Below the pieces are notes generated by a model. The model made no database searches and was not told the DNA's origin. It saw nothing but the letters and a program-made list of their open reading frames with translations. A DNA stretch of 64,000 nucleotides from Sialis fuliginosa (Eukaryota > Arthropoda > Insecta > Megaloptera > Sialidae): positions 14,634,501 through 14,698,500 of the forward strand of contig OY540822.1 in NCBI GenBank assembly GCA_961205875.1, given 5' to 3'. Both the position numbers and the translations under genes were made by a program. Shown in pieces: positions 2,658-58,230 of this stretch; the first letter of the stretch is position 1, and every line of letters starts with the position of its first letter.

Positions 2658-3282
2658 CAATTTGAAACAAAAAATTATATATCGCAATTATCATAAATAT
2701 AGTCTTTTCACGAAAAAAATTCTAGCCAGTTATGAGTTAACAAAGTAATGTTTATCATAAACTGAATCCAATAACTAACATAAATTCAGTAAAGCTATTT
2801 GCATTTATTGATTATTACACAATTTCATTCGACTTTCCTCCAGTAAAAAAGTTCAATATGCTGACGACATTTTCATAAAATAACAAAGCGCAAAATGATG
2901 ATTACGGGGGCCTACGAAACTATAGTTGAATGAAAATTTACACATTTTTATCGGTAACGTTTATATGTGTCAGACGAACTAATGTAGGTAATATCCACAA
3001 CCTGTGCTTTCGACTGTTTTGCATATAAAGATGTTGTACTAGAATTCTCAACTTCCCCTCTGCACGTGTGCTCGGATTGCCTACTGTATTTGATGGTGGT
3101 AAATACTGTTATACCATATTTAGGGGGTTGTTCCTAATCCTAATAACAATTCTATTGAAATAAGGATATTGATAGGTACTCTTTTATATTAAACAAAAAA
3201 AAAATAATTATGAAACACCTTCAGTTCAAGCTTTTACTTTTTAAAATAAATTCTTATATATTTATATAGTAACTAAATGATT

Positions 3283-4028
3283 CTAGGTCTTATTTTCTTG
3301 TATTTTAGTCGATATTTGTATGACGAGTTGAAGTTCACTGCAGGAAATTTCACTAAAAAAGTTCGAATTTTTTATTTCGTTAAAAGTATGTTTATTGTAT
3401 AGAAAATGACGTGAAAAGTTGAACTGTTCAAACCGCAGGTCTGTATCTCAAACCGTTCTCGAGATATAGCCTCTCAAAGTTTTAGTATTTTCAAATTTTT
3501 GGAGAAAAAAGGCCATAACTTTTGAACGTGTGGTCGGAATTGATTTTAGTTAACGGATTTGAAATCAGCGTGTCAAAATCTATATAATGACATGTATAAT
3601 ACTTTAAAATCCGACAAAAAAATTTTGGTTAAAAATCGACATTTTTTTAAGGTATACCCCTTTGAATTTTTTCGATTTTTCGTGAATTTTTTTTTTTCGA
3701 GTTTTAAGGTATTATACATGCCATTATATAGATTTTGATACGCTGATTCCAAATCCGTCAACTAAAATCAATTCCGACCACACGTTCAAAAGTTATGGCC
3801 TTTTTTCTCCAAAAATTTGAAAAAACTAAAAATTTGAGAGGCTATATCTCGAGAACGGTTTGAGATACAGACCTGCGGTTTGAAACAAACAACTTTTCAC
3901 GTCATTTTCTATACAATAAACATACTTTTAACGAAATCAAAAATTCGAAATTTTTTAGTGAAATTTCCTGCATTGAACTTCAACTCGTCATACAAATATC
4001 GACTAAAATACAAAAAAATAAGACGTAG
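3283..4028. mobile_element. Foldback element with arms of about 360 bp
   Basis: The left half (from CTAGGTCTTATT through GTATTTTAGTCGATATTTG) returns as its reverse complement in the right half, ending CAAATATCGACTAAAATAC...AATAAGACGTAG. Paired landmarks run all the way in: AAACCGCAGGTCTGTATCTC with its complement near 3860, GGCCATAACTTTTGAACGTG with its complement near 3785, and TATAATACTTTAAAAT with its complement near 3705. Only about 20-40 bp at 3635-3680 are unpaired. No ORF of note is present. The RNA would form one very long imperfect hairpin. It lies next to a broken family A copy. Confidence 0.85.
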
Positions 4029-4085
4029 AGGTATTATAGTTTTATAATTGAGCGTGTAACTTAATATTAAATGCTATTTTTGATT

Positions 4086-41345: not shown

Positions 41346-41700
41346 CCTCACACAATTTGCAATTTTAATTTTTCTAGAGATGCACACGATACAAGATAAG
41401 ATTGACTTTAAGTAAGTTTCATTTCGTCTCGTCAAAATTTTTACTTTAAATTTAATAAATTTAAGTCTAAATTAAGTAAGGTCGTATGTTTTTCAACTGC
41501 CTGTTGGTCCACGACTCTTTATTCAATATATTCAGAGTAGCCCCTTGATTTCAGAAAACAGAAAATACAAATATCTATTATTATTTTACGTGTGACAATT
41601 TCCCACTGAGTCAACGATTTCCAACCATCGCGATCCCAGTGTAGCACATATTATAAAATAAAAATTAAAACTGGAAAATTTGACATTTCTATAGTACTTT

Positions 41701-41787
41701 TTAAAAATAATTTTCTAACAACAAGGGGGTTCCCCCATCGGCCAACCGGGGGACGCGCCGTAACGCGGTCAGGCTCCGCGCACGGAC
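41701..41787 (-). other. Minus-strand exon-like segment (GC-rich, open frame to stop)
   Basis: Read on the minus strand, a strong acceptor (TGCTTTTCTCTTTCAG at 41803-41788) is followed by 29 codons VRARSLTALRRVPRLADGGT...ENYF and a TAA. The segment is abruptly GC-rich in AT-rich surroundings. It contains a CCCCCGGTTGG/CCGATGGGGG-type inverted pairing. It is at the low-coordinate edge of the satellite array and would be the last exon of a minus-strand unit starting at 46468. I do not recognise the peptide, and no clean AATAAA follows. Confidence 0.35.
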
Positions 41788-43440
41788 CTGAAAGAGAAAA
41801 GCATTATTAGTATACACCAACCCAATATCGGACGTCCGAATAAATAAACATGCAAAGACAGACACAACATAAAACATAAACATGCAAGGACAGACACAAC
41901 ATAAAACATAAACATGCAAAATAATTAAGTATTACAAAAAGTATAACAATTCTAGTTGCTCAGCTGTCGTTGCGCCAAAGCTCTAATCTCGCCCGCTGAT
42001 GAGAAACTGAAACATACCATACATATTAAGTGTTAATTTCATAATAAAAAATCAAATCAAATTTTAAAACGAACTTTTTGATATGAAAAAATTTACAATA
42101 AAAATAAAATCAAATATTAAAAACATTTTAACAATTATTTGAAGAAAAAGATAGGTATAAGTCGACAATGTTCTTGTTAATCTGAAACATACAAAATATT
42201 AATAATTTAGCCGTCATAGATCGGCTTTTTGATATGAAAAAATTTACAATAAAAATAAAATCAAATTTTAGAAACATTATAACAATTATTTGAAGAAAGG
42301 GGTAGGTATAAGTCAACAATGTTCTTGTTAATCTGAAACATACAAAATATTAATAATTTAGCCGTCGTTGATCGGCTATTTGATATAAAACATTTAACAA
42401 TAAAAAAGAAATCAAATATTGAATAGAAACATTAGGGGTAGGTATAAGTCGATAACGTTCTTGTTAATCTGAAACATACAAAATATTAATAATTTAGCCG
42501 TCGTTGATCGGCTATTTGATATAAAACATTTTACAATAAAAAAGAAATCAAATATTGAATAGAAACATTGGGGGTAGGTATAAGTCGACAATGTTCTTGT
42601 TAATCTGAAACATACAAAATATTAATAATTTAGCCGTCATTGATCGGCTCTTTGATATGAAAAAATTTACAATAAAAATAAAATCAATTAGAAACATTAT
42701 AACAATTATTTGAATAAAGGGGTAGGTAAAGTCGACAATGTTCTTGTTAATCTGAAACATACAAAATATTAATAATTTAGCCGTCATAGATCGGCTTTTT
42801 GATATGAAAAAATTTACAAAAAAAATAAAATCAAATTTTAGAAATATTATAACAACTATTTGAAGAAAGGGGTAGGTATAAGTCGACAATGTTCTTGTTA
42901 ATCTGAAGCATACAAAATATTAATAATTTAGCCGTCATTGATCGGCTTTATGATATGAAAAATTTTTACAATAAAAACAAAATCAAATATTAGAAACATT
43001 CTAACAATTATTTGAATAAAGCGGTAGGTATAAGTCGATGATGTACTTGTTCATCTGAAACATACAAAATATTAATAATTTAGCCGTCATTGATCGGCTT
43101 TTAGATATGAAAAAATTTACAATAAAAATAAAATCAAATTTTAGAAACATTATAACAATTATTTGAAGAAAGGGGTTGGTGTAAGTCGACAATGTTCTTG
43201 TTAATCTGAAACATACAAAATATTAATAATTAAGCCGTCGTTGATCGGCTATTTGATATAAAACATTTTACAATAAAAAAGAAATCAATTAGAAACATTA
43301 TAACAATTATTTTAATAAAGGGGTAGGTATAAGTCGACAATGTTCTTGTTCATCTGAAACATACAAAATATTAATAATTTAGCCGTCATAGATCGGCTTT
43401 TTGATATGGAAAAATTTACAATAAAAATAAAATCAAATTT

Positions 43441-43720
43441 TAGAATAAATAAACATGCAAGGACAGACACAACATAAAACATAAACATGCAAGGACAGAC
43501 ACAACATAAAACATAAACATGCAAGGACAGACACAACATAAAACATAAACATGCAAAATAATTAAGTATTACAAAAAGTATAACAATTCTAGTTGCTCAG
43601 CTGTCGTTGCGCCAAAGCTCTAATCTCGCCCGCTGATGAGAAACTGAAACATACCATACATATTAAGTGTTAATTTCATAATAAAAAATCAAATCAAATT
43701 TTAAAACGAACTATCAATCA
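43441..43720. repeat. Higher-order repeat insert: 32-bp minisatellite plus exon-like segment
   Basis: About three copies of a 32-bp repeat (CATGCAAGGACAGACACAAC, ATAAAACATAAA) followed by a unique GC-richer segment. The same block occurs at 41849-42070 and 44429-44700. The spacing of the last two, about 988 bp, defines the higher-order unit. Confidence 0.85.
43588..43643 (-). other. Exon-like segment behind a minus-strand acceptor (three copies)
   Basis: On the minus strand TATGTATGGTATGTTTCAG is followed by TTTCTCATCAGCGGGCGAGA, TTAGAGCTTTGGCGCAACGA and CAGCTGAGCAACTAG, then AATTGTTATAC. It is GC-rich and conserved in copies at 41951-42006, 43588-43643 and 44549-44604. The donor would have to be the weak GTTATA. 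There is no frame of useful length, so if transcribed it is probably non-coding. Confidence 0.35.
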
Positions 43721-45861
43721 TTTTCAGAACGAGGAATAAGACAACAATCTTCTTATGAATCTGAAACATACAAAGTATTAATTATTTAGCCGTCGTTGAT
43801 CGGCTATTTGATATAAAACATTTTACAATAAAAAAGAAATCAAATATTGAATAGAAACATTGGGGGTAGGTATAAGTCGACAATGTTCTTGTTAATCTGA
43901 AACATACAAAATATTAATAATTTAGCCGTCATTGATCGGCTCTTTGATATGAAAAAATTTACAATAAAAATAAAATCAATTAGAAACATTATAACAATTA
44001 TTTGAATAAAGGGGTAGGTAAAGTCGACAATGTTCTTGTTAATCTGAAACATACAAAATATTAATAATTTAGCCGTCATAGATCGGCTTTTTGATATGAA
44101 AAAATTTACAAAAAAAATAAAATCAAATTTTAGAAATATTATAACAACTATTTGAAGAAAGGGGTAGGTATAAGTCGACAATGTTCTTGTTAATCTGAAA
44201 CATACAAAATATTCATAATTTAGCCGTCATTGATCGGCTTTATGATATGAAAATTTTTTACAATAAAAACAAAATCAAATATTAGAAACATTCTAACAAT
44301 TATTTGAATAAAGCGGTAGGTATAAGTCGATGATGTACTTGTTCATCTGAAACATACAAAATATTAATAATTTAGCCGTCATAGATCGGCTTTTTGATAT
44401 GGAAAAATTTACAATAAAAATAAAATCAAATTTTAGAATAAATAAACATGCAAGGACAGACACAACATAAAACATAAACATGCAAGGACAGACACAACAT
44501 AAAACATAAACATGCAAAATAATTAAGTATTACAAAAAGTATAACAATTCTAGTTGCTCAGCTGTCGTTGCGCCAAAGCTCTAATCTCGCCCGCTGATGA
44601 GAAACTGAAACATACCATACATATTAAGTGTTAATTTCATAATAAAAAATCAAATCAAATTTTAAAACGAACTATCAATCATTTTCAGAACGAGGAATAA
44701 GACAACAATCTTCTTATGAATCTGAAACATACAAAGTATTAATTATTTAGCCGTCGTTGATCGGCTATTTGATATAAAACATTTTACAATAAAAAAGAAA
44801 TCAAATATTGAATAGAAACATTGGGGGTAGGTATAAGTCGACAATGTTCTTGTTAATCTGAAACATACAAAATATTAATAATTTAGCCGTCATAGATCGG
44901 CTTTTTGATATGAAAAAATTTACAATAAAAATAAAATCAAATTTTAGAAACATTATAACAATTATTTGAAGAAAGGGGTAGGTATAAGTCAACAATGTTC
45001 TTGTTAATCTGAAACATACAAAATATTAATAATTTAGCCGTCATTGATCGGCTCTTTGATATGAAAAAATTTACAATAAAAATAAAATCAATTAGAAACA
45101 TTATAACAATTATTTGAATAAAGGGGTAGGTAAAGTCGACAATGTTCTTGTTAATCTGAAACATACAAAATATTAATAATTTAGCCGTCATAGATCGGCT
45201 TTTTGATATGAAAAAATTTACAAAAAAAATAAAATCAAATTTTAGAAATATTATAACAACTATTTGAAGAAAGGGGTAGGTATAAGTCGACAATGTTCTT
45301 GTTAATCTGAAACATACAAAATATTAATAATTTAGCCGTCATTGATCGGCTTTATGATATGAAAAATTTTTACAATAAAAACTAAATCAAATATTAGAAA
45401 CATTCTAACAATTATTTGAATAAAGCGGTAGGTATAAGTCGATAATGTACTTGTTTATCTGAAACATACAAAATATTAATAATTTAGCCGTCATTGATCG
45501 GCTTTTAGATATGAAAAAATTTACAATAAAAATAAAATCAAATTTTAGAAACATTATAACAATTATTTGAAGAAAGGGGTAGGTGTAAGTCGGCAATGTT
45601 CTTGTTAATCTGAAACATACAAAATATTAATAATTAAGCCGTCGTTGATCGGCTATTTGATACAAAACATTTTACAATAAAAAAGAAATCAATTAGAAAC
45701 ATTATAACAATTATTTTAATAATAATAGTTTTAGAAATATTATAACAATTATTTGAAGAAAGAGGTAGGTATAAGTCGATAATGTTCTTGTTAATCTGAA
45801 ACATACAAAATATTAATAATTTAGCCGTCATTGATCGGCTTTTAAATATTAAACATTTTAC

Positions 45862-46468
45862 CACCACTCTTAAAACCCGCGTTCCGCGAAGTTGGTAGCT
45901 TCTGAGCTGGGTAGGACTCTTCTTCAATGCGAAGACAGAGCTTGACTTGCTGAAGTACACTCACTGACGACAATTAATAAATTAACTGGATAACTGCAGA
46001 CTCCTTGCAGCACAAAACTGTCAAAACACTGACTGACTGACTTAGTGACTGACGGACTTACCGACTGACTGACTTACCGACTTACTGACTTACCGACTTA
46101 CTGACTGACCGACTTACTGACTGAGTGACTGACTGACTTATCGACTGACTAACTTACCGACTTACTGACTTACCGACTTACTGACTGACCGACTCATTGA
46201 CTTACCGACTTACTGACTGACCGACTTACTGACTGACCGACTTACTGACTGACCGACCGACTCATTGACTTACCGACTTACTGACTGACCGACTTACTGA
46301 CTGACCGACCGACTCATTGACTTACCGACTTACTGACTGACCGACTTACTGACTTACTTATTGACAGACTTACTGACTGACAGACTTACTGACTTACGTA
46401 CTGACTTACCGACTTACTGACTGACTGACTAACTGACTTACTGACTGACTGACTACTGATTGACTACT
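45862..46468 (-). ncRNA. Putative non-coding first exon of a minus-strand unit
   Basis: Runs from an initiator TCAGT (A at 46468) through the GACT minisatellite to a donor-like GTG|GTAAAATG at 45861. The last 150 bases are GC-richer (CTTCAGCAAGTCAAGCTCTG, AGAAGAGTCCTACCCAGCTC, TTCGCGGAACGCGGG). No usable ATG lies between the minisatellite and the donor. A transcript is inferred only from promoter and splice-site appearance. Confidence 0.3.
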
Positions 46469-46475
46469 GACTTTA
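46018..46475. repeat. GACT/GACC/TTAC minisatellite
   Basis: About 450 bp of variant 4- and 8-mers: GACTGACT, GACTTACC, GACTGACC, with larger repeats such as CGACTCATTGACTTACC. On the minus strand it is a run of TCAG/TCGGTAAG, that is, serial copies of the arthropod initiator core TCAGT. Confidence 0.92.
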
Positions 46476-46503
46476 CTTCATTCTTCGAGCCAGCTTTTAT
46501 ATT
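46464..46503 (-). promoter_or_regulatory. Minus-strand TATA box plus initiator
   Basis: TATAAAAG (plus positions 46501-46494) lies 33 bases before the A of GTCAGTAG (46468). TCAGT is the arthropod initiator. Spacing is two to three bases longer than ideal. It faces into the satellite array and a GC-richer exon-like segment. Confidence 0.45.
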
Positions 46504-47254
46504 AAAACTTACGTAACTTGTTTATTAAAATTTATCGTAGTTAAAATTTTGTTGTGATTACATTTTATTTAATCACAAGACTCTAAAATTACGTTATTTT
46601 ATTCTGTGATGTCACAATTTAAAATAACATAAATATAGCAATCAATAAAAATATTAAAAAATTTAAAATTAAAAAGTATGTTTTATAAACAATTCCATGC
46701 TATTGAATGTTGAACCCTGATGCAAATATAATCAAATTTTCAATGTTTAAAAAAATTAAGGACTGAACTACATAATAGTACAATAATTTGTTTGATATTT
46801 AATTATAATTACAAGTTGTCTAATGCCGCTGGGAAACAAGAATCTGAAACATATAAAATGTTAATTGTTTAGCCGGTATTGCTCGGCTTAATATATTTAA
46901 AATTATGTAAATAATTTAATTAAAATTGAATAGAGTCAAATAGTGGTTAGTTTTATCTGAGAAATTATTGAAAATTAGTTAAAAAATTAACAATATGAAT
47001 TACCAACACTTAACTGGCTTGCGTTCCGGAAAATAAAAATTATTATTTTTATCAAAAAAGTGTTGTTTTTTTTAAAATTATTTTGAACTTCTGCATTCGC
47101 CTCATATTTTTATTATTCTTATTATTAAATCTTCTTCATTTTCTTCCATTTTTATTTAAATATTTTTTACACTCACTAACACACACATTAAATATAAATT
47201 ATATATGTAAACTATAATTCTCCCAGAATTGACGCGAAACTTTTTGATAAAAGA

Positions 47255-47560
47255 AAACTAAGTAATCTTAAATTACTGAATTTCCTTTTCATTTAACAAA
47301 TTGTAAATATAAAAATTATATACTGAGAATAGAAAACTAAGTAATTCTAAATTACTGAATTTCCTTTTCATTTAATAAATTGTAAATATAAAAAAATATA
47401 TATTGAGAATAGAAAACTAAGTAATCCTTAATTACTGAATTTCCTTTCCATTTAATGAATTATAAAGATAAAAAAAAATAAACATATATTGATAAAAGAA
47501 AACTAAGTAATCTTAAATTACTGAATTTTCTTTTCATTTAATTAATTTTAAACATAAAAA
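47255..47560. repeat. About 90-bp local tandem repeat (4 copies)
   Basis: Four copies of GAAAACTAAGTAATCTTAAA, TTACTGAATTTCCTTTTCAT, TTAAYAAATTGTAAAYATAA. The AGTAAT...ATTACT core is self-complementary. It sits within the first diverged unit. Confidence 0.85.
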
Positions 47561-47565
47561 ATATA

Positions 47566-47800
47566 CCGGGTGGTATTGATGATAAGCAAATATCTCAAAA
47601 ATTAAGAATTTTCTGGGAAAATGTTTGGTACAAAAGATTCAGGGTTAACAGGGGGGAAAACTAATGGAGGTAAAAATTTTGGCCTTGAGTGGAGGTTCGT
47701 TTTGAGGTCAACTACATTTTTTTAAATAGAAATCTTCTTCGATATGAAAAGTTTTTTCAAAAACCTCAGTTTAAAAGTTTTTTTTTAATTAACAATTTAA
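47566..47800. mobile_element. Possible transposon fragment starting ACCGGGTGG
   Basis: ATACCGGGTGGTATTGATGA and later AACAGGGGGGAAAACTAATGG, TTGGCCTTGAGTGGAGGTTC are absent from the sister units, so this was inserted into one unit. The CGGGTG end resembles the termini of several insect DNA transposons. The other end is unclear. Confidence 0.35.
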
Positions 47801-47970
47801 AAAAAATTAAGTTTTTTAATTGATAATAGTAAAAACAAAATTTTGATATTTAGTTGTAGATACTAGTTGTCCAGTCCACCAAAAAACAGGAATCTGAAAC
47901 ATATAAAGCATTAATTGTTAAGCCGGTATTTCTCGGCTTTATGTATTCAAAATTATTTAAATAATAGTTA

Positions 47971-48028
47971 AATAGAGTCGAACCCAAGACACTTGAGATA
48001 GCAAAAGTGGTAAGTTAAATCTGAGAAA
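47971..48028 (-). repeat. tRNA-like module in the tandem unit
   Basis: The minus strand reads TCTCAGATTTAACTTACCAC (D-arm-like), TTTTGCTATCTCAAGTG (anticodon-arm-like) and TCTTGGGTTCGACTC (T-arm/B-box). The same order recurs at 48636-48690, 49261-49316 and 49869-49922. Stems are degenerate, so it is not a functional tRNA but a tRNA-derived module within the satellite. Confidence 0.5.
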
Positions 48029-48366
48029 TAAATGTATATAAAAAAAACAAAAGCAATATGAAATACCAACATTTAACTGGCCTACGTTCTGGAAAATACT
48101 AATTATTATTTTTATCAAAAAAGTGTTGTTTTTTTTTTTAATTGTTTTGATCTTCTGCATTCTCTTCATATTTTTTTAATTCTTATTATTAATATCTTCT
48201 TTATTTTCTTCTATTTTTATATTTTTTTACACGCACTAACAGACATTAAATAAAATAGACATGACGCGAAACTTAAAATATATATTGATAAAAGAAAACT
48301 AAATAATCTAAGATTACTGAATTTCCTTCTCATTTAATAAATTATTAATATAAAAAAATATACATA

Positions 48367-48456
48367 TATTTAGATTGGAAAACTAAGTAATTTAAAATTA
48401 CTGAATTTAAAAGGAAATTCAGTAATTTAAAATTACTTAGTTTTCCAATCTAAATA
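48367..48456. repeat. 90-bp near-perfect inverted repeat
   Basis: TATTTAGATTGGAAAACTAA through TTACTGAATTT returns after AAAAGG as AAATTCAGTAATTT through TTAGTTTTCCAATCTAAATA. The arms are about 41 bp with one or two mismatches. It results from an inverted duplication of the AAGTAAT box and is unique to this unit. Confidence 0.9.
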
Positions 48457-50597
48457 CATATTTTTTATAAATTGTAAACATAAAAATTTCTAGAGAAATT
48501 CGAACCCTGCTGTAAATGTATTCATATTTCCAATTTTTAAAATTTTCATAATAGCAAAATGAAAATTTTGATATTTAGTTGTAATAAGTAGAGCCGCTGA
48601 GAAACAAGAATCTGAAACATATAAAAAGTTAATAGAGTCGAACCAAAGACACTTAAGATAGTAAAACTGCTAAGTTATATCTGAGAAATAAATGAATATA
48701 AAAAAACAATCACAATATGAATTACCCACATTTAACTGACTTGTGTTCTGGAAAATAAAAATTATTATTTATATCAAAAAAGTGTTGTTTTTTTTTAAAT
48801 TGCTTTGATCTTCTGCATTCACTTCTTAATTTTTTTAATCTTATTATTAATATCTTCTTCATTTTCTTCTATTTATTATTTATATATTTTTTACAAACAC
48901 TAACAGACACATTAAATATAAATACATACACTCTCACTATAATTGACGCGAAATATATATATATATATATTGAAAATAGAAAACTAAGTAATCTTAAATT
49001 ACTGAATTTCCTTTTCACTGAATAAATTGTAAACATAAAAATTGCTAGGGAAATTCGAACCCTACTGGAAATGTAGACATATTTCCATAGTTTAAAAATT
49101 ACAAAATAGCAAAATGAAAATTTTGATACTTAGTTGTAATTAGTAGTTGTCTAGAGCCGCTGAGTAACAAGAATCTGAAACATATAAAATGTTAATTGTT
49201 AAGCCGGTATTGCTCGGCTATATATATTTAAAATTATGTGTAGAATTAAATTAAAATTGAATAGAGTCGAACCCACGATTCTTACTATAGTACAAGTGGT
49301 TAGTTTTATCTGAGAAATTATTGAAACTAAGTTAAAAAATTAACAATATAAATTACCAACATTTAACTGGCTTGCGTTCTGGAGAATATAAATTAATATT
49401 TTGATCACAAATTTTTTTTTTTTTATTGTTTTGATCTGCATTCTCTTCATGTTTTTTTTTTATTCTTATTATTAATATCTACTTCTTTTTATTATTAATA
49501 TATTTTTTTACACGCACTTACAGACACATTAAATATAAACTATGATTCTTTCTCGCAAGAATTGACGCGAAACTGGAAATATATATTTAGACTAGAAAAT
49601 TAAGTAATCTTATATTACTGAATTTCCTTTTCATTTAATGAATTGTTAACAAAAATATTGCTACAGAGATTCGAACCCTGCTGTAAATATAATCATATTT
49701 CCCATGTTTAAAAATTACAAAATGAAAATTTTGGTAGGTAGTTGTAATAAGTAGTTGTCTAGAGCCGCTGAGAAACAAGAATCTGAAACATATAAAATGT
49801 TAATTGTTAAGCCGGTATTGCTCGACTTAATATATTTAAAATTATGTAAATAATTAAATTAAAATTGAATAGAGTCAAACCTAAGATTCTTCATATAGCA
49901 ATAGTGGTTATTTTTATCTGAGAAAATATTGAAAATAAGTTAAAACATTAACAATATGAATTACCAACATTTAACTGGCTTGCATTCCGGAAAGTAAAAA
50001 TTCTTATTTCATCAAAAAAGAGTTATTTTTTAAATTGTTTTGATCTTCTGCATTCTCTTCATATTTTTTTATTCTTTTTACTAATATATCTTCTTCATTT
50101 TCTTTTATTTTTTATTTATATATTCTTTACACGAACTAACAGACACATTAAATATAAATATATGCTCTCTTCCTAGAATTGACGCGAAACTTAAAATATA
50201 TATTGATAAAAGAAAACTAAGTAATCTAAAATTACTGAATTTCCTTTTATTTAATAAATTATAACCATACAAATAATAATAAAGGGGGAAACCTAACAAA
50301 CCTGAAAATCATTAAAACTTATAAACTAAATAAGTACTCCTCTCTGTCATACATCACCACCGGCTAAAAAGAGAGCAACTTCGCAATAAGTGTGTTTTTC
50401 TGTACCTGTTCTGGAGGATATAGCCCCAAAGGTAACGCGATATTTTCATTAATAAAATCAAAAATTATTTAACTGAATGTTAATGTGAATTTAAAGTGAT
50501 AATTATTTGAAAATGTATACAAACAAAACCCTTTTAGTTTAAAAAAAAAAATTAATAAATTATTAAGACATTAATCAAAATAACAATTAGTTATAAA

Positions 50598-50660
50598 TCC
50601 CTCGATGCCGCCGTGTCTGGAATACGACACAGCAGTCCTTCCTTATTGGAACCTAGGAAC
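50598..50660 (-). other. Exon-like GC-rich segment behind a minus-strand acceptor, unit 1
   Basis: On the minus strand ATATGTATCTTTACATTTCAG is followed by GTTCCTAGGTTCCAATAAGG, AAGGACTGCTGTGTCGTATT, CCAGACACGGCGGCATCGAG and then AT-rich AACTAATTGTTATTTT. Repeated at 53900-53962 and 57205-57267. The flanking motif (CTGAAATGTAAAGATACATA then TTAATTGTG on the plus strand) is a diverged version of the satellite box. Confidence 0.35.
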
Positions 50661-50751
50661 CTGAAATGTAAAGATACATATTAATTGTGTTGTGTAGGGT
50701 GGATGTGACGTCAACAGCCTTTGTGCAATGGTAGTTAGACGTGGCGTGGGA

Positions 50752-50797
50752 GTGTGACGCCTAACAGCCCCCCTGCATGTTGTTAGGCGTGACACAC
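50752..50797. repeat. 15-bp stem-loop, unit 1
   Basis: GTGTGACGCCTAACA, a C-rich loop, then TGTTAGGCGTGACAC with one mismatch near the base. Identical in unit 2 (54054-54099) and unit 3 (57359-57404). It lies about 560-600 bp upstream of the plus-strand initiator. Confidence 0.85.
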
Positions 50798-51326
50798 ATT
50801 GTCAATGTAACCTACTAGTGCTGCCGAGACGCTCAAAGCAGACATCGCCTAAGACCTTCTCCGGCTAAAATAAGCAGATAACTGTCTTTTCGCTAGTACC
50901 TTCCGGCAATACAATCACTCTATATCATATTTTAGTGAAATATCGCTTAAGGACACCTAGACAAGATTACTTATCGTGTTTATCTAGCTTAAGGCCCGTT
51001 GACGTATAAAATATCAAAAGTCTGCCTGGCATCGGTACACAACAACCCCGACCTACCACAGGAGAGGGTAATTTTGGGGCAGCGGGCCACGGGCGACGTT
51101 TTTTGCAATAATTCGCGCACTAAACAGGGCCCAACAACAAACACTGTCCGATAACGGGTCTTCAAAACCCTAAACTAACAGACAGGGTTCGTCGGCGAGC
51201 CGGAAATCATTAACTCGGATGAATCGCCCAACATAACGCACCCCCCAAATACCAAAATTCAATTCGTAAGTCACAAAACAGATTTCATTTCTTTCAACTA
51301 ATCCGTTTGGTGGAATACGATACACT

Positions 51327-51362
51327 TATAAATACACTCGCATTTATTCGTTCGTCATTCGC
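51327..51362 (+). promoter_or_regulatory. TATA box and initiator, unit 1
   Basis: TATAAATA begins exactly 30 bases before the A (51357) of TCATTC, a full match to the arthropod initiator TCAKTY. The leader then folds as GGACTCCTGCGGGAGCTCC at 51371-51390. This is textbook core-promoter geometry and is conserved in all three units (see 54629 and 57934). Confidence 0.6.
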
Positions 51363-51409
51363 TAACGGTAGGACTCCTGCGGGAGCTCCTAGGACCGCTC
51401 AGGGTTGGG

Positions 51410-51613
51410 ATGAAACGTTGGACCAGGTACAATACTCGACACACTTTATATAAAACCACGAACCATCATAGGTTCAATGTGGTCAACACTAAAAATAACC
51501 GACCTTTAGGGCGCTATCCCACCCTGACGTTTGAACTCGATTACTGCACAGCAACTCGCTCCACCAGCTCCAAAATCTGCACAGGAAACGCCACCATAAC
51601 TTGCACCAACTAA
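51410..51613 (+). CDS. Small basic ORF (67 aa) downstream of the unit 1 promoter, hypothetical
   Basis: The first ATG after the predicted start site (53-nt leader) opens a 67-codon frame: MKRWTRYNTRHTLYKTTNHH at the start and KICTGNATITCTN at the end. It is Thr/Asn/Arg-rich with no signal peptide, membrane segment or known domain. A donor-like ACCAG|gtacaa at 51427 could remove most of it if spliced. The unit 2 copy is identical and the unit 3 copy diverges after GRYPTL. I do not recognise it; it may be a by-product of a non-coding transcript. Confidence 0.3.
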   Translation: MKRWTRYNTRHTLYKTTNHHRFNVVNTKNNRPLGRYPTLTFELDYCTATRSTSSKICTGNATITCTN

Positions 51614-51836
51614 TTACAAAACAAATGATTAATTGTTTTTCCTGTACACATACCATATGATAAAATTACCTTTAAAATTCGAGCTTAATATATGTTTAAT
51701 AATCGCCATAAAATTTACGTAAATATTTAACAAATTAATATAATCCTTTCTAATTTGAAAATATAACAATTATATACTACGATGATTTTAGTTAATGTAC
51801 CAAAACACAGAGATTCGAACCCTGCTGTAAATTAAT

Positions 51837-53106
51837 TGTTAAGCCGGTATATCTCGGCTTTATGTATTCAAAATGATGTGAATAATTAAAGAAAAAGTCG
51901 AACCCAAGACACTTGAGATAGTAAAAGTTATATATTTTTTTAAATAATTTATATAATTAACAACTACTTCGTTTTTTTACTTCGTTATATGTAGCTTGTA
52001 AAAGATTTTAATTTTGTATGCATCGGTTTTAACAAACTTTAAATAGAAAAAATAATAATAATTCACGGCAAACCAACTACATTACAGGAACTCGAATCCT
52101 GCTGTAAATGTAATCAATCGTATTTTCATTATTTCCAAAAAATAAATGTAGGTCTGGTTATTACAAAATTATAAAAGAAAACTTTGATATTTAGTAGTGT
52201 TTAAAATAGTTGTCCAATGCTGCTGAAAAACAGGATCTGAAACATATAAAGGATTAATTGTTAAGCCGGTATATCTCGGCTTTATGTATTCAAAATGATG
52301 TGAATAATTAAAGAAAAAGTCGAACCCAAGACACTTGAGATAGTAAAAGTTATATATTTTTTTAAATAATTTATATAATTAACAACTACTTCGTTTTTTT
52401 ACTTCGTTATATGTAGCTTGTAAAAGATTTTAATTTTGTATGCATCGGTTTTAACAAACTTTAAATAGAAAAAATAATAATAATTCACGGCAAACCAACT
52501 ACATTACAGGAACTCGAATCCTGCTGTAAATGTAATCAATCGTATTTTCATTATTTCCAAAAAATAAATGTAGGTCTGGTTATTACAAAATTATAAAAGA
52601 AAACTTTGATATTTAGTAGTGTTTAAAATAGTTGTCCAATGCTGCTGAAAAACAGGATCTGAAACATATAAAGGATTAATTGTTAAGCCGGTATATCTCG
52701 GCTTTATGTATTCAAAATGATGTGAATAATTAAAGAAAAAGTCGAACCCAAGACACTTGAGATAGTAAAAGTTATATATTTTTTTAAATAATTTATATAA
52801 TTAACAACTACTTCGTTTTTTTACTTCGTTATATGTAGCTTGTAAAAGATTTTAATTTTGTATGCATCGGTTTTAACAAACTTTAAATAGAAAAAATAAT
52901 AATAATTCACGGCAAACCAACTACATTACAGGAACTCGAATCCTGCTGTAAATGTAATCAATCGTATTTTCATTATTTCCAAAAATAAATGTAGGTCTGG
53001 TTATTACAAAATTATAAAAGAAAACTTTGATATTTAGTAGTGTTTAAAATAGTTGTCCGATTCTGCTGGAAAACGGGAATCTGAAACATATAAAGCGTTA
53101 ATTATT
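51837..53106. repeat. 422-bp subrepeats of unit 1
   Basis: The hairpin AAGCCGGTATATCTCGGCTT occurs at 51841, 52263, 52685 and 53107, exactly 422 bp apart. Each subrepeat also has a tRNA T-arm-like CAGGAACTCGAATCCTG (minus strand, perfect 5-bp stem, e.g. 52085-52101), a second TCGAACCCAAGACACTTGAG module, and ACTACTTCGTTTTTTTACTTC. Confidence 0.95.
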
Positions 53107-54053
53107 AAGCCGGTATATCTCGGCTTTATGTATTCAAAATGATGTGAATAATTAAATAAAAAGTTGAACCCAAGACACTTGGGATAGAAAAAAGTGGTTA
53201 GTTTTATCTAAGAAATTATCAATTATTAAAACATTAACAATATGAATTACCAACATTTAACTGGCTTGCCAATCTGTAAAATATTAATATCCGTTTATAA
53301 AATATATTTTTTTTTATAATTTATATTGTTTCGATCTTCTGCATTTGTTTCTTTTTTTTTTTTACTTCTTTGTTTTTTTTTATATCTACAACATTAATAT
53401 TTTTTTACACTTACTGAAAAACACATAAAATATAAATACATGCTCTCTCTCTAGAATTGACGCGAAACTTAAAATATATTTGTGAAAAGAAAACTAAGCG
53501 ATCATAGATTACTGAATTTCCTTTTCTATTTAATAAATTATACACATAAAATAATATATACATATATATAAAGAGGGGGGAAACCTAACAGAATCTGAAA
53601 AATAAAAAAGTATTAAAACTTATAAACTAAATAAGTACTCATCTCTGACATACATCAACACCGGCTAAAAAGAGAGCAACTTCGCAATAAGTGTGTTTTT
53701 CTGTACCTGTTCTGGAGGATATAGCCCCAAAAGTAACGCGATATTTTCATTAATAAAATCAAAAATTATTTAACTGAATGTTAATGTGAATTTAAAGTGA
53801 TAATTATTTGAAAATGTATACAAACAAAACCCTTTTAGTTTAAAAAAAAAAAATTAATTAATTATTAAGACATTAATCAAAATAACAATTAGTTATAAAT
53901 CCCTCGATGCCGCCGTGTCTGGAATACGACACAGCAGTCCTTCCTTATTGGAACCTAGGAACCTGAAATGTAAAGATACATATTAATTGTGTTGTGTAGG
54001 GTGGATGTGACGTCAACAGCCTTTGTGCAATGGTAGTTAGACGTGGCGTGGGA

Positions 54054-54099
54054 GTGTGACGCCTAACAGCCCCCCTGCATGTTGTTAGGCGTGACACAC
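54054..54099. repeat. 15-bp stem-loop, unit 2
   Basis: Identical to the stem-loop at 50752: GTGTGACGCCTAACA paired with TGTTAGGCGTGACAC. Confidence 0.85.
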
Positions 54100-54628
54100 A
54101 TTGTCAATGTAACCTACTGGTGCTGCCGAGACGCTCAAAGCAGACATCGCCTAAGACCTTCTCCGGCTAAAATAAGCAGATAACTGTCTTTTCGCTAGTA
54201 CCTTCCGGCAATACAATCACTCTATATCATATTTTAGTGAAATATCGCTTAAGGACACCTAGACAAGATTACTTATCGTGTTTATCTAGCTTAAGGCCCG
54301 TTGACGTATAAAATATCAAAAGTCTGCCTGGCATCGGTACACAACAACCCCGACCTACCACAGGAGAGGGTAATTTTGGGGCAGCGGGCCACGGGCGACG
54401 TTTTTTGCAATAATTCGCGCACTAAACAGGGCCCAACAACAAACACTGTCCGATAACGGGTCTTCAAAACCCTAAACTAACAGACAGGGTTCGTCGGCGA
54501 GCCGGAAATCATTAACTCGGATGAATCGCCCAACATAACGCACCCCCCAAATACCAAAATTCAATTCGTAAGTCACAAAACAGATTTCATTTCTTTCAAC
54601 TAATCCGTTTGGTGGAATACGATACACT

Positions 54629-54664
54629 TATAAATACACTCGCATTTATTCGTTCGTCATTCGC
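54629..54664 (+). promoter_or_regulatory. TATA box and initiator, unit 2
   Basis: TATAAATA with TCATTC at the same 30-base spacing (A at 54659). Confidence 0.6.
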
Positions 54665-54711
54665 TAACGGTAGGACTCCTGCGGGAGCTCCTAGGACCGC
54701 TCAGGGTTGGG

Positions 54712-54915
54712 ATGAAACGTTGGACCAGGTACAATACTCGACACACTTTATATAAAACCACGAACCATCATAGGTTCAATGTGGTCAACACTAAAAATAA
54801 CCGACCTTTAGGGCGCTATCCCACCCTGACGTTTGAACTCGATTACTGCACAGCAACTCGCTCCACCAGCTCCAAAATCTGCACAGGAAACGCCACCATA
54901 ACTTGCACCAACTAA
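54712..54915 (+). CDS. Small basic ORF (67 aa), unit 2, hypothetical
   Basis: Identical to the 51410-51613 product and at the same distance from the initiator. Identity at protein level says nothing about selection here, because the surrounding non-coding DNA is equally conserved. Function unknown. Confidence 0.3.
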   Translation: MKRWTRYNTRHTLYKTTNHHRFNVVNTKNNRPLGRYPTLTFELDYCTATRSTSSKICTGNATITCTN

Positions 54916-55138
54916 TTACAAAACAAATGATTAATTGTTTTTCCTGTACACATACCATATGATAAAATTACCTTTAAAATTCGAGCTTAATATATGTTTA
55001 ATAATCGCCATAAAATTTACGTAAATATTTAACAAATTAATATAATCCTTTCTAATTTGAAAATATAACAATTATATACTACGATGATTTTAGTTAATGT
55101 ACCAAAACACAGAGATTCGAACCCTGCTGTAAATTAAT

Positions 55139-56408
55139 TGTTAAGCCGGTATATCTCGGCTTTATGTATTCAAAATGATGTGAATAATTAAAGAAAAAGT
55201 CGAACCCAAGACACTTGAGATAGTAAAAGTTATATATTTTTTTAAATAATTTATATAATTAACAACTACTTCGTTTTTTTACTTCGTTATATGTAGCTTG
55301 TAAAAGATTTTAATTTTGTATGCATCGGTTTTAACAAACTTTAAATAGAAAAAATAATAATAATTCACGGCAAACCAACTACATTACAGGAACTCGAATC
55401 CTGCTGTAAATGTAATCAATCGTATTTTCATTATTTCCAAAAATAAATGTAGGTCTGGTTATTACAAAATTATAAAAGAAAACTTTGATATTAGGTAGTG
55501 TTTAAAATAGTTGTCCGATTCTGCTGGAAAACGGGAATCTGAAACATATAAAGCGTTAATTGTTAAGCCGGTATATCTCGGCTTTATGTATTCAAAATGA
55601 TGTGAATAATTAAAGAAAAAGTCGAACCCAAGACACTTGAGATAGTAAAAGTTATATATTTTTTTAAATAATTTATATAATTAACAACTACTTCGTTTTT
55701 TTTCTTCGTTATATGTAGCTTGTAAAAGATTTTAATTTTGTATGCATCGGTTTTAACAAACTTTAAATAGAAAAAATAATAATAATTCACGGCAAACCAA
55801 CTACATTACAGGAACTCGAATCCTGCTGTAAATGTAATCAATCGTATTTTCATTATTTCCAAAAAATAAATGTAGGTCTGGTTATTACAAAATTATAAAA
55901 GAAAACTTTGATATTTAGTAGTGTTTAAAATAGTTGTCCAATGCTGCTGAAAAACAGGATCTGAAACATATAAAGGATTAATTGTTAAGCCGGTATATCT
56001 CGGCTTTATGTATTCAAAATGATGTGAATAATTAAAGAAAAAGTCGAACCCAAGACACTTGAGATAGTAAAAGTTATATATTTTTTTAAATAATTTATAT
56101 AATTAACAACTACTTCGTTTTTTTACTTCGTTATATGTAGCTTGTAAAAGATTTTAATTTTGTATGCATCGGTTTTAACAAACTTTAAATAGAAAAAATA
56201 ATAATAATTCACGGCAAACCAACTACATTACAGGAACTCGAATCCTGCTGTAAATGTAATCAATCGTATTTTCATTATTTCCAAAAATAAATGTAGGTCT
56301 GGTTATTACAAAATTATAAAAGAAAACTTTGATATTTAGTAGTGTTTAAAATAGTTGTCCGATTCTGCTGGAAAACGGGAATCTGAAACATATAAAGCGT
56401 TAATTGTT
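55139..56408. repeat. 422-bp subrepeats of unit 2
   Basis: Same subrepeat as at 51837, including AGCCG/CGGCT hairpins and T-arm-like CAGGAACTCGAATCCTG. The minus frame at 55584-55790 is a chance frame in this repeat. Confidence 0.95.
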
Positions 56409-57358
56409 AAGCCGGTATATCTCGGCTTTATGTATTCAAAATGATGTGAATAATTAAATAAAAAGTTGAACCCAAGACACTTGGGATAGAAAAAAGTGGT
56501 TAGTTTTATCTAAGAAATTATCAATTATTAAAACATTAACAATATGAATTACCAACATTTAACTGGCTTGCCAATCTGTAAAATATTAATATCCGTTTAT
56601 AAAATATATTTTTTTTTTATAATTTATATTGTTTCGATCTTCTGCATTTGTTTCTTCTTTTTTTTTTACTTCTTTGTTTTTTTTTTATATCTACAACATT
56701 TATATTTTTTTACACTTACTGAAAAACACATAAAATATAAATACATGCTCTCTCTCTAGAATTGACGCGAAACTTAAAATATATTTTGTGAAAAGAAAAC
56801 TAAGCGATCATAGATTACTGAATTTCCTTTTCTATTTAATAAATTATACTCATAAAATAATATATACATATATATAAAGAGGGGGGAAACCTAACAGAAT
56901 CTGAAAAATAAAAAAGTATTAAAACTTATAAACTAAATAAGTACTCATCTCTGACATACATCAACACCGGCTAAAGAGAGAGCAACTTCGCAATAAGTGT
57001 GTTTTTCTGTACCTGTTCTGGAGGATATAGCCCCAAAAGTAACGCGATATTTTCATTAATAAAATCAAAAATTATTTAATTGAATGTTAATGTGAATTTA
57101 AAGTGATAATTATTTGAAAATGTAAACAAACAAAACCCTTTTAGTTTAAAAAAAAAAATTAATAAATTATTAAGACATTAATCAAAATAACAATTATTTA
57201 TAAATCCCTCGATGCCGCCGTGTCTGGAATACGACACAGCAGTCCTTCCTTATTGGAACCTAGGAACCTGAAATGTAAAGATACATATTAATTGTGTTGT
57301 GTAGGGTGGATGTGACGTCAACAGCCTTTGTGCAATGGTAGTTAGACGTGGCGTGGGA

Positions 57359-57404
57359 GTGTGACGCCTAACAGCCCCCCTGCATGTTGTTAGGCGTGAC
57401 ACAC
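57359..57404. repeat. 15-bp stem-loop, unit 3
   Basis: Same stem-loop as at 50752 and 54054. Confidence 0.85.
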
Positions 57405-57933
57405 ATTGTCAATGTAACCTACTGGTGCTGCCGAGACGCTCAAAGCAGACATCGCCTAAGACCTTCTCCGGCTAAAATAAGCAGATAACTGTCTTTTCGC
57501 TAGTACCTTCCGGCAATACAATCACTCTATATCATATTTTAGTGAAATATCGCTTAAGGACACCTAGACAAGATTACTTATCGTGTTTATCTAGCTTAAG
57601 GCCCGTTGACGTATAAAATATCAAAAGTCTGCCTGGCATCGGTACACAACAACCCCGACCTACCACAGGAGAGGGTAATTTTGGGGCAGCGGGCCACGGG
57701 CGACGTTTTTTGCAATAATTCGCGCACTAAACAGGGCCCAACAACAAACACTGTCCGATAACGGGTCTTCAAAACCCTAAACTAACAGACAGGGTTCGTC
57801 GGCGAGCCGGAAATCATTAACTCGGATGAATCGCCCAACATAACGCACCCCCCAAATACCAAAATTCAATTCGTAAGTCACAAAACAGATTTCATTTCTT
57901 TCAACTAATCCGTTTGGTGGAATACGATACACT

Positions 57934-57969
57934 TATAAATACACTCGCATTTATTCGTTCGTCATTCGC
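57934..57969 (+). promoter_or_regulatory. TATA box and initiator, unit 3
   Basis: TATAAATA and TCATTC at the same 30-base spacing (A at 57964). Confidence 0.6.
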
Positions 57970-58016
57970 TAACGGTAGGACTCCTGCGGGAGCTCCTAGG
58001 ACCGCTCAGGGTTGGG

Positions 58017-58208
58017 ATGAAACGTTGGACCAGGTACAATACTCGACACACTTTATATAAGACCACGAACCATCATAGGTTCAATGTGGTCAACACTAAA
58101 AATAACCGACCTTTAGGGCGCTATCCCACCCTGATGATTGGACACGATTACCTCACAGCAACTCTGCTTCTGATATTTGGATGCCGCACATTGAATGTTC
58201 AGCATTGA
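58017..58208 (+). CDS. Small ORF (63 aa) with divergent C-terminus, unit 3, hypothetical
   Basis: Shares the first 39 residues (MKRWTRYNT...GRYPTL) with the unit 1 and 2 ORFs, then reads MIGHDYLTATLLLIFGCRTL and ends LNVQH. The 3-prime part is only loosely alignable (CACGATTAC, CACAGCAACTC, CTGCACAG), so this copy is either older or recombined. The stop is at 58206. Function unknown. Confidence 0.28.
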   Translation: MKRWTRYNTRHTLYKTTNHHRFNVVNTKNNRPLGRYPTLMIGHDYLTATLLLIFGCRTLNVQH

Positions 58209-58230
58209 TTATCTGCACAGAACACACCAC

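Follow-up and report, generated by a model that had tools for sequence, protein, structure and literature searches.

Why should the layers of a nested satellite array, which look unrelated to one another, all keep the same short hairpin? The question is raised by a locus of Sialis fuliginosa lying in a window of 64,000 nucleotides (contig OY540822.1, here C14, positions 14634501-14698500), where 150-bp monomers, larger units and 422-bp subrepeats carry a box composed of a left half, a TTAAT spacer and a stem AGCCG/CGGCT. The original prediction regarded this box as the unifying element of the array, recalling either protein-bound boxes such as the CENP-B box or an RNA structure. The locus probably belongs to a dispersed noncoding family with a folded RNA encoded on the minus strand; in one subfamily the arrays carry the box as a module, perhaps an acceptor-like one. 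Genome-wide searches covered 392 Mb in 20 contigs, and positions given without a contig are those of the window.

The alignments suggest that the best-conserved part of the element, a GC-rich domain, is a folded RNA of the minus strand. Thirteen sequences were aligned, with L033 excluded because an insertion splits its domain, and RNAalifold returned 102 pairs, nine of them with double changes. A 53-pair rod is paired in 99.4% of 684 cells, has eight double-changed pairs and reaches a covariation score of 0.151, which was attained by none of 500 shuffles; all rod measures except the number of pair types exceed every shuffle, and slid versions are 39-48% paired with covariation scores of at most 0.056. 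The rod-specific count comprises 62 G-U cells, no A-C cells and four other non-standard cells. Compensatory base changes keeping the helices are thus present, from few independent events. The consensus energy of the core is -43.9 on the minus strand versus -21.2 on the plus strand (column shuffles: mean -11.3, best of 20 -19.1), and that of the whole alignment is -83.0 on the given (minus) strand versus -64.7 on the complement. Strand is not decided by G-U counts alone, since the complement also yields many such pairs (200 versus 149). Additionally, a 44-mer that forms a 10-pair hairpin hardly changes across the aligned sequences, and a separate terminal domain is conserved with no covariation because its pairs are invariant.

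Some points weigh against the rod. It was derived from the same alignment that was used to test it, and, with two main clades among the sequences, its double changes stem from few independent events. Moreover, RNAalifold run on the core alone chose a different inner fold, although in the core alignment the rod is 99.7% paired with nine double-changed cells versus 98.7% and five for the alternative. Among catalogued RNAs, Rfam 15 gave no match at gathering score over the whole window, and two further scans gave only sub-threshold matches, four of them (E 0.027-9.9) in the first; the segment 41369-41599 was covered only by the whole-window scan. A hammerhead or other catalogued RNA, which CTGATGAG beside a lead copy of the box resembled, was rejected, as Rfam returned no such match.

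The locus belongs, by sequence similarity, to a dispersed and apparently noncoding family. The terminal domain (41720-41791) was found at 16 loci and the GC-rich domain at at least 14 (40 of 55 candidates scored). Their union spans 10 contigs and comprises 20 loci, of which C9 and C14:13.37M rest on only 57-71 bp. The closest loci are C14:11.13M, C14:15.42M, C10:12.75M and C5:12.38M, and the order of terminal domain, 150-bp array, microsatellite, larger units and GC-rich domain recurs at the first two. Copies of the GC-rich domain number 11 at C14:11.13-11.17M, six on C13, four on C8, four at C14:9.56M and three in the window. Seven loci (L030-L036) have both domains and other arrays without the box, namely units of 200-212 bp in L030, L031, L034 and L036 and of 95 bp in L035. 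The 200-212-bp monomers (L036 2610-3490, L030, L031, L034) have a longer hairpin, ACAGGGTTG..ATTGAT / ATCAAT..CAACCCTGT, upstream of TTTTCAG/ATT, and its sequence is unrelated to the box hairpin. The longest stop-to-stop frame in 41369-58200 has 128 aa and lies in the 150-bp array, that of the GC-rich domain has 93 aa, and nothing convincing was found in Pfam among 10 frames compared.

Within the window, the element is laid out as follows (TRF, Tandem Repeats Finder).

41369-58168, minus strand: whole element; the left edge at 41369 (TTTTTCTAGAG) is the onset of similarity to four other loci, similarity on the right ends near 58164, and the strand is taken from the rod and the folding energy
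41498-41558, minus strand: conserved block of the terminal region, 81-82% in the five related loci tested
41720-41791, minus strand: terminal GC-rich domain with hairpins CGTGCGCGG..CCGCG and CCCCCGG.., directly downstream of CTTTTCTCTTTCAG on the minus strand; 87-91% identity in related loci
41844-41920, minus strand: first block of a 32-bp minisatellite (TRF), with further blocks at 43449-43556 and 44442-44517
42182-45840, minus strand: 150-bp array, 22 monomers with a complete box
46028-46473, strand unassigned: degenerate four-base microsatellite of ACTGACTTACCG type (TRF), present also in L020 and L023
46700-50278, minus strand: larger units with boxes at 46844, 47894, 48612 (left half only), 49175 and 49783
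50541-51660, minus strand: GC-rich RNA-like domain, copy 1; rod core 50840-51005, 44-mer 50595-50638
51831-53192, minus strand: 422-bp repeats with boxes at 52237, 52659 and 53081; hairpin alone at 51842
53840-54960, minus strand: GC-rich RNA-like domain, copy 2; rod core 54142-54307
55134-56494, minus strand: 422-bp repeats with boxes at 55539, 55961 and 56383; hairpin alone at 55144
57148-58164, minus strand: GC-rich RNA-like domain, copy 3; 53-pair rod 57427-57690, core 57447-57612, 44-mer 57202-57245 with its 10-pair hairpin

The predicted layering was borne out by TRF and self-comparison: periods of 136-152 occur at 42074-45722, period-422 repeats at 51831-53192 and 55134-56494, and the units of about 3.3 kb are 96% identical (49708-54862 versus 53004-58168). 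The proposed start at 41701 was misplaced, as similarity to other loci begins at 41369.

The pattern CTGAAACATAYAAA, allowing two mismatches, matches the window 44 times, 38 of them between 42007 and 56914, versus a mean of 4.0 and a maximum of 10 in shuffled controls. With at most one mismatch in each half, there are 33 left halves and 34 hairpins, both being present at 32 places (22 in the 150-bp array and 10 in the larger units). The stem (AGCCG-N8-CGGCT) is exact in 33 of the 34 hairpins, the mismatched one lying at 49810, and the loops are TCATTGAT (9), GTATATCT (8), TCATAGAT (7), TCGTTGAT (6), GTATTGCT (3) and GTATTTCT (1). Retention of the box in all layers therefore stands for these 32 copies but not for every unit, as 48612 keeps only the left half, 51842 and 55144 only the hairpin, and the lead copies at 42007, 43644 and 44605 lack the hairpin. 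Among 22 aligned 150-bp monomers, the diversity of the box is 0.035 (45 columns) versus 0.152 in the flanks (110 columns), and no window of its length is less diverse; the box is thus less divergent than its flanks, as had been anticipated. The paired stem changes also looked for are absent inside the window because the stem hardly varies.

Local alignments indicate that the 150-bp and larger-unit layers share the box by descent, because those at the box beat shuffles while box-free flanks stay at chance. One 150-bp monomer scores 72, 66, 69, 50 and 47 against five larger units (best of 300 shuffles: 44, 44, 43, 37 and 38), the alignments starting at the box and continuing into the A/T-rich stretch after it, and flanks without the box score 16 (left) and 24 (right) against one larger unit, with null means of 14.9 and 25.5. 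Both layers would have grown by tandem duplication and unequal exchange from units already holding the box; they may look unrelated because the remainder drifted.

Across loci, the box hairpin covaries little. In 28 distinct copies from several loci, standard pairs fill 84.7% of cells (slid versions 11.7-46.9%), and the covariation comes down to a single inner pair, GC (15) in one array type and UA (10) in the other, with one lone UA besides; the hairpin's two double-changed pairs were equalled by 450 of 500 shuffles. The expectation of an RNA structure is accordingly supported mainly in the GC-rich domain, by the covariation of the rod, but not by double changes in the box hairpin. In five divergent copies on C10 (L026), one or two stem pairs out of five are broken, and TTTCAG or TTCCAG is retained.

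Nor is the box specially conserved in single-unit loci, which counts against the favoured explanation. It is 91% identical in L042, decayed (64%) in L041 and absent from L040, and other windows of the single units are as good in 39% of cases in L042 and 96% in L041. The rod core is kept at 95, 98 and 92% in L042, L041 and L040, and the 44-mer at 95-98%. Since the box is lost or decayed in units that keep both, the comparison indicates that it is not the conserved core of the element. At L042 2300-2330 (C4:15.8976M), similarity to the window ends 6 nt past the TTTCAG of the box, and the next sequence looks repetitive. This single boundary was not used as proof of a terminus.

Ordinary satellite expansion, in which the box is a functionless ancestral seed kept by homogenisation and its hairpin aids slippage or unequal exchange, would fit the decay or absence of the box in two of the three single units. 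It also agrees with the hairpin losses, which at 48612 and in the lead copies fall at the TTAAT spacer, and recent amplification would leave the stem invariant in the window. We nevertheless consider it rather unlikely, because in the 150-bp array the box is four times less diverse than its flanks and because L026 copies with a broken stem still have the left half; the structured domain, moreover, is left unaddressed.

Further occurrences of the box do exist in the genome, but they are confined to related loci. A longer box pattern with up to three mismatches gave 117 genome-wide matches versus none for the reversed control, and among the 100 matches listed, 99 lie at C14:11.127-11.169M, the window, C14:15.424-15.441M and C10:12.751-12.752M, with one on C4; the short pattern alone gave 168 versus 33 for the control. 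The box is therefore peculiar to one family rather than a general protein box. Protein binding of the kind known for the CENP-B box would account for a short motif retained in diverged satellites, yet this prediction is not supported and is now highly improbable: 99 of the 100 listed sites fall at four loci of one family, and the hairpin is not retained in related arrays. The CENP-B consensus is TTCGNNNNANNCGGG, and with at most one mismatch it matches the window three times versus 2.9 expected, never in the box. An exact match lies at 45876-45890 on the minus strand, between the 150-bp array and the microsatellite. In viral and genome contig collections, neither of which includes insect genomes, the box (in a 23-base form for the viral contigs) and the rod core pattern were both absent, so no inference is drawn on other species. 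A hairpin-only pattern matched one viral contig (L001), a 19-base piece of the 44-mer matched another (L043) whose surroundings are without similarity, and phages gave only weak A/T-rich matches to the box (E 0.2-0.8 among matches listed).

What, then, might the box do? On the RNA (minus) strand, the hairpin is followed by 27 nt and TTTCAG/AT, and TTAAY precedes a T-rich tract, so the box appears to resemble a splice acceptor with a branch-site-like TTAAY. In the copies of the window, C14:11.1M and C10:12.75M, CTTTTCTCTTTCAG immediately precedes the terminal domain, and the single unit of L040 continues straight into CTCTTTCAG/GTCCG. T-rich CAG sites also occur ahead of the 44-mer, where most of the 13 sequences have TATTTCAGG, and every 207-212-bp monomer contains one. 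By one simple rule, strong T-rich YAG sites in 41369-58200 number 36 on the minus strand versus four on the plus strand, and 55 and 52 on the two strands in 1-41368. Several findings count against an acceptor. The strand excess is not universal (6 versus 6 at C10:12.75M, 8 versus 6 in L036), the box itself falls below the threshold of that count, and a T-rich minus strand in itself inflates acceptor-like counts. Moreover, no regular donor site accompanies the acceptors in the one unit examined. Best alignments among the 150-bp, larger, 207-212-bp and 95-bp monomers fall at CAGATT in three of five comparisons, but none stands clear of its shuffles, of which 8 to 96 in 500 score as high. A role as acceptor or decoy is consequently possible but somewhat doubtful, because the strand is T-rich, donors are irregular and the resemblance between arrays is within shuffles.

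Returning to the dispersed RNA-encoding family as the favoured explanation, a locus would consist of a GC-rich structured domain plus tandem array, present once to about 11 times, with the terminal GC-rich domain at the end where found. In one subfamily, the repeated array module would be the box, with its small hairpin, branch-site-like TTAAY, T-rich tract and TTTCAG/AT. The loci would be transcribed, the box may owe its retention to acting as a splice acceptor or imitating one, and the arrays would form runs of competing or decoy acceptors. Bolder still, and decidedly unlikely, is a new insect-type class of dispersed noncoding RNA genes in which a tandem folded core and hairpin-bearing runs of acceptor decoys titrate a splicing factor, unrelated arrays converging on an acceptor-like module. 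The noncoding RNA of Drosophila hsr-omega is nuclear and includes a long stretch of tandem repeats; the likeness is by description only, and hsr-omega is a single-copy gene. PNCTR, a human repeat-rich long noncoding RNA, sequesters PTBP1 according to PMC6224606, and serves here as a working model only, in which tandem repeats of a long noncoding RNA offer many sites to a pyrimidine-tract protein and sequester it. The tandem repeats of PNCTR are short and its transcript is made by Pol I, whereas the present family has monomers of 95-422 bp, 20 loci and a conserved fold, and is known from sequence alone.

If transcribed, the family would comprise structured noncoding RNAs at about 20 loci with no counterpart in Rfam 15, in a genome where masking would treat arrays of this kind as satellite. 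The family would also offer a concrete case of a satellite growing out of an RNA-encoding element, the satellite-signal-like box being part of that element, and the acceptor reading makes tandem repeats as splicing decoys a testable idea. A literature search by topic turned up no description of the family, which is no proof that none exists; by sequence letters, only one 13-base piece matched, in four papers, and was taken as chance.

Could the locus instead be a nonautonomous rolling-circle transposon (Helentron-associated element, HINE/DINE-1 type), its central tandem repeats and end hairpins making up the locus and the box being a relic of terminal or replication signals? Satellites carried by Helentrons are described in PMC7492417, PMC4067079 and PMC12628747. 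As the first two describe them, HINEs with central tandem repeats (Cg_HINE, DINE-1) share with the present element a dispersed, noncoding nature, repeats of about 150 bp, an adjoining four-base microsatellite and palindromic GC-rich ends with a hairpin. Microsatellite and central repeats are both present here, and the T run at the 41369 boundary and the limit of similarity in L042, 6 nt past the box, might point the same way. However, subterminal inverted repeats of 11-15 bp were not found in the flanks of the 150-bp array (exact, at least nine bases; only A/T-rich matches of 9-10) or at the ends at 58.2 kb, searched by 10-mers only. The sequence beyond 41369 is common to four other loci with ragged limits, unlike a fixed terminus, and the element contains no replication protein frame. 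A covarying 53-pair RNA-like rod in tandem is likewise not known as a HINE part. Such an origin is clearly unlikely.

Several smaller observations remain. The larger units (46700-50278 and 51831-56494, minus strand) each contain GGGTTCGAATC and GGGTTCGACTC, which we take to be like the T-arm/B box of tRNA genes, and remains of a tRNA-derived short interspersed nuclear element are possible on this resemblance; ARAGORN found no tRNA genes. The box lies between these two motifs, which are separated by about 230 bp. A near-perfect A/T-rich inverted repeat occupies 48347-48473 (130 bp, 85% to its own reverse). Outside the element, the plus strand of 1-283 reads like a coding exon, His/Ala-rich, with a possible donor at its end, perhaps of a transcription factor, and without a Pfam match. 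Another inverted repeat, at 3282-4029 (750 bp, about 91% identity), is probably another mobile element.

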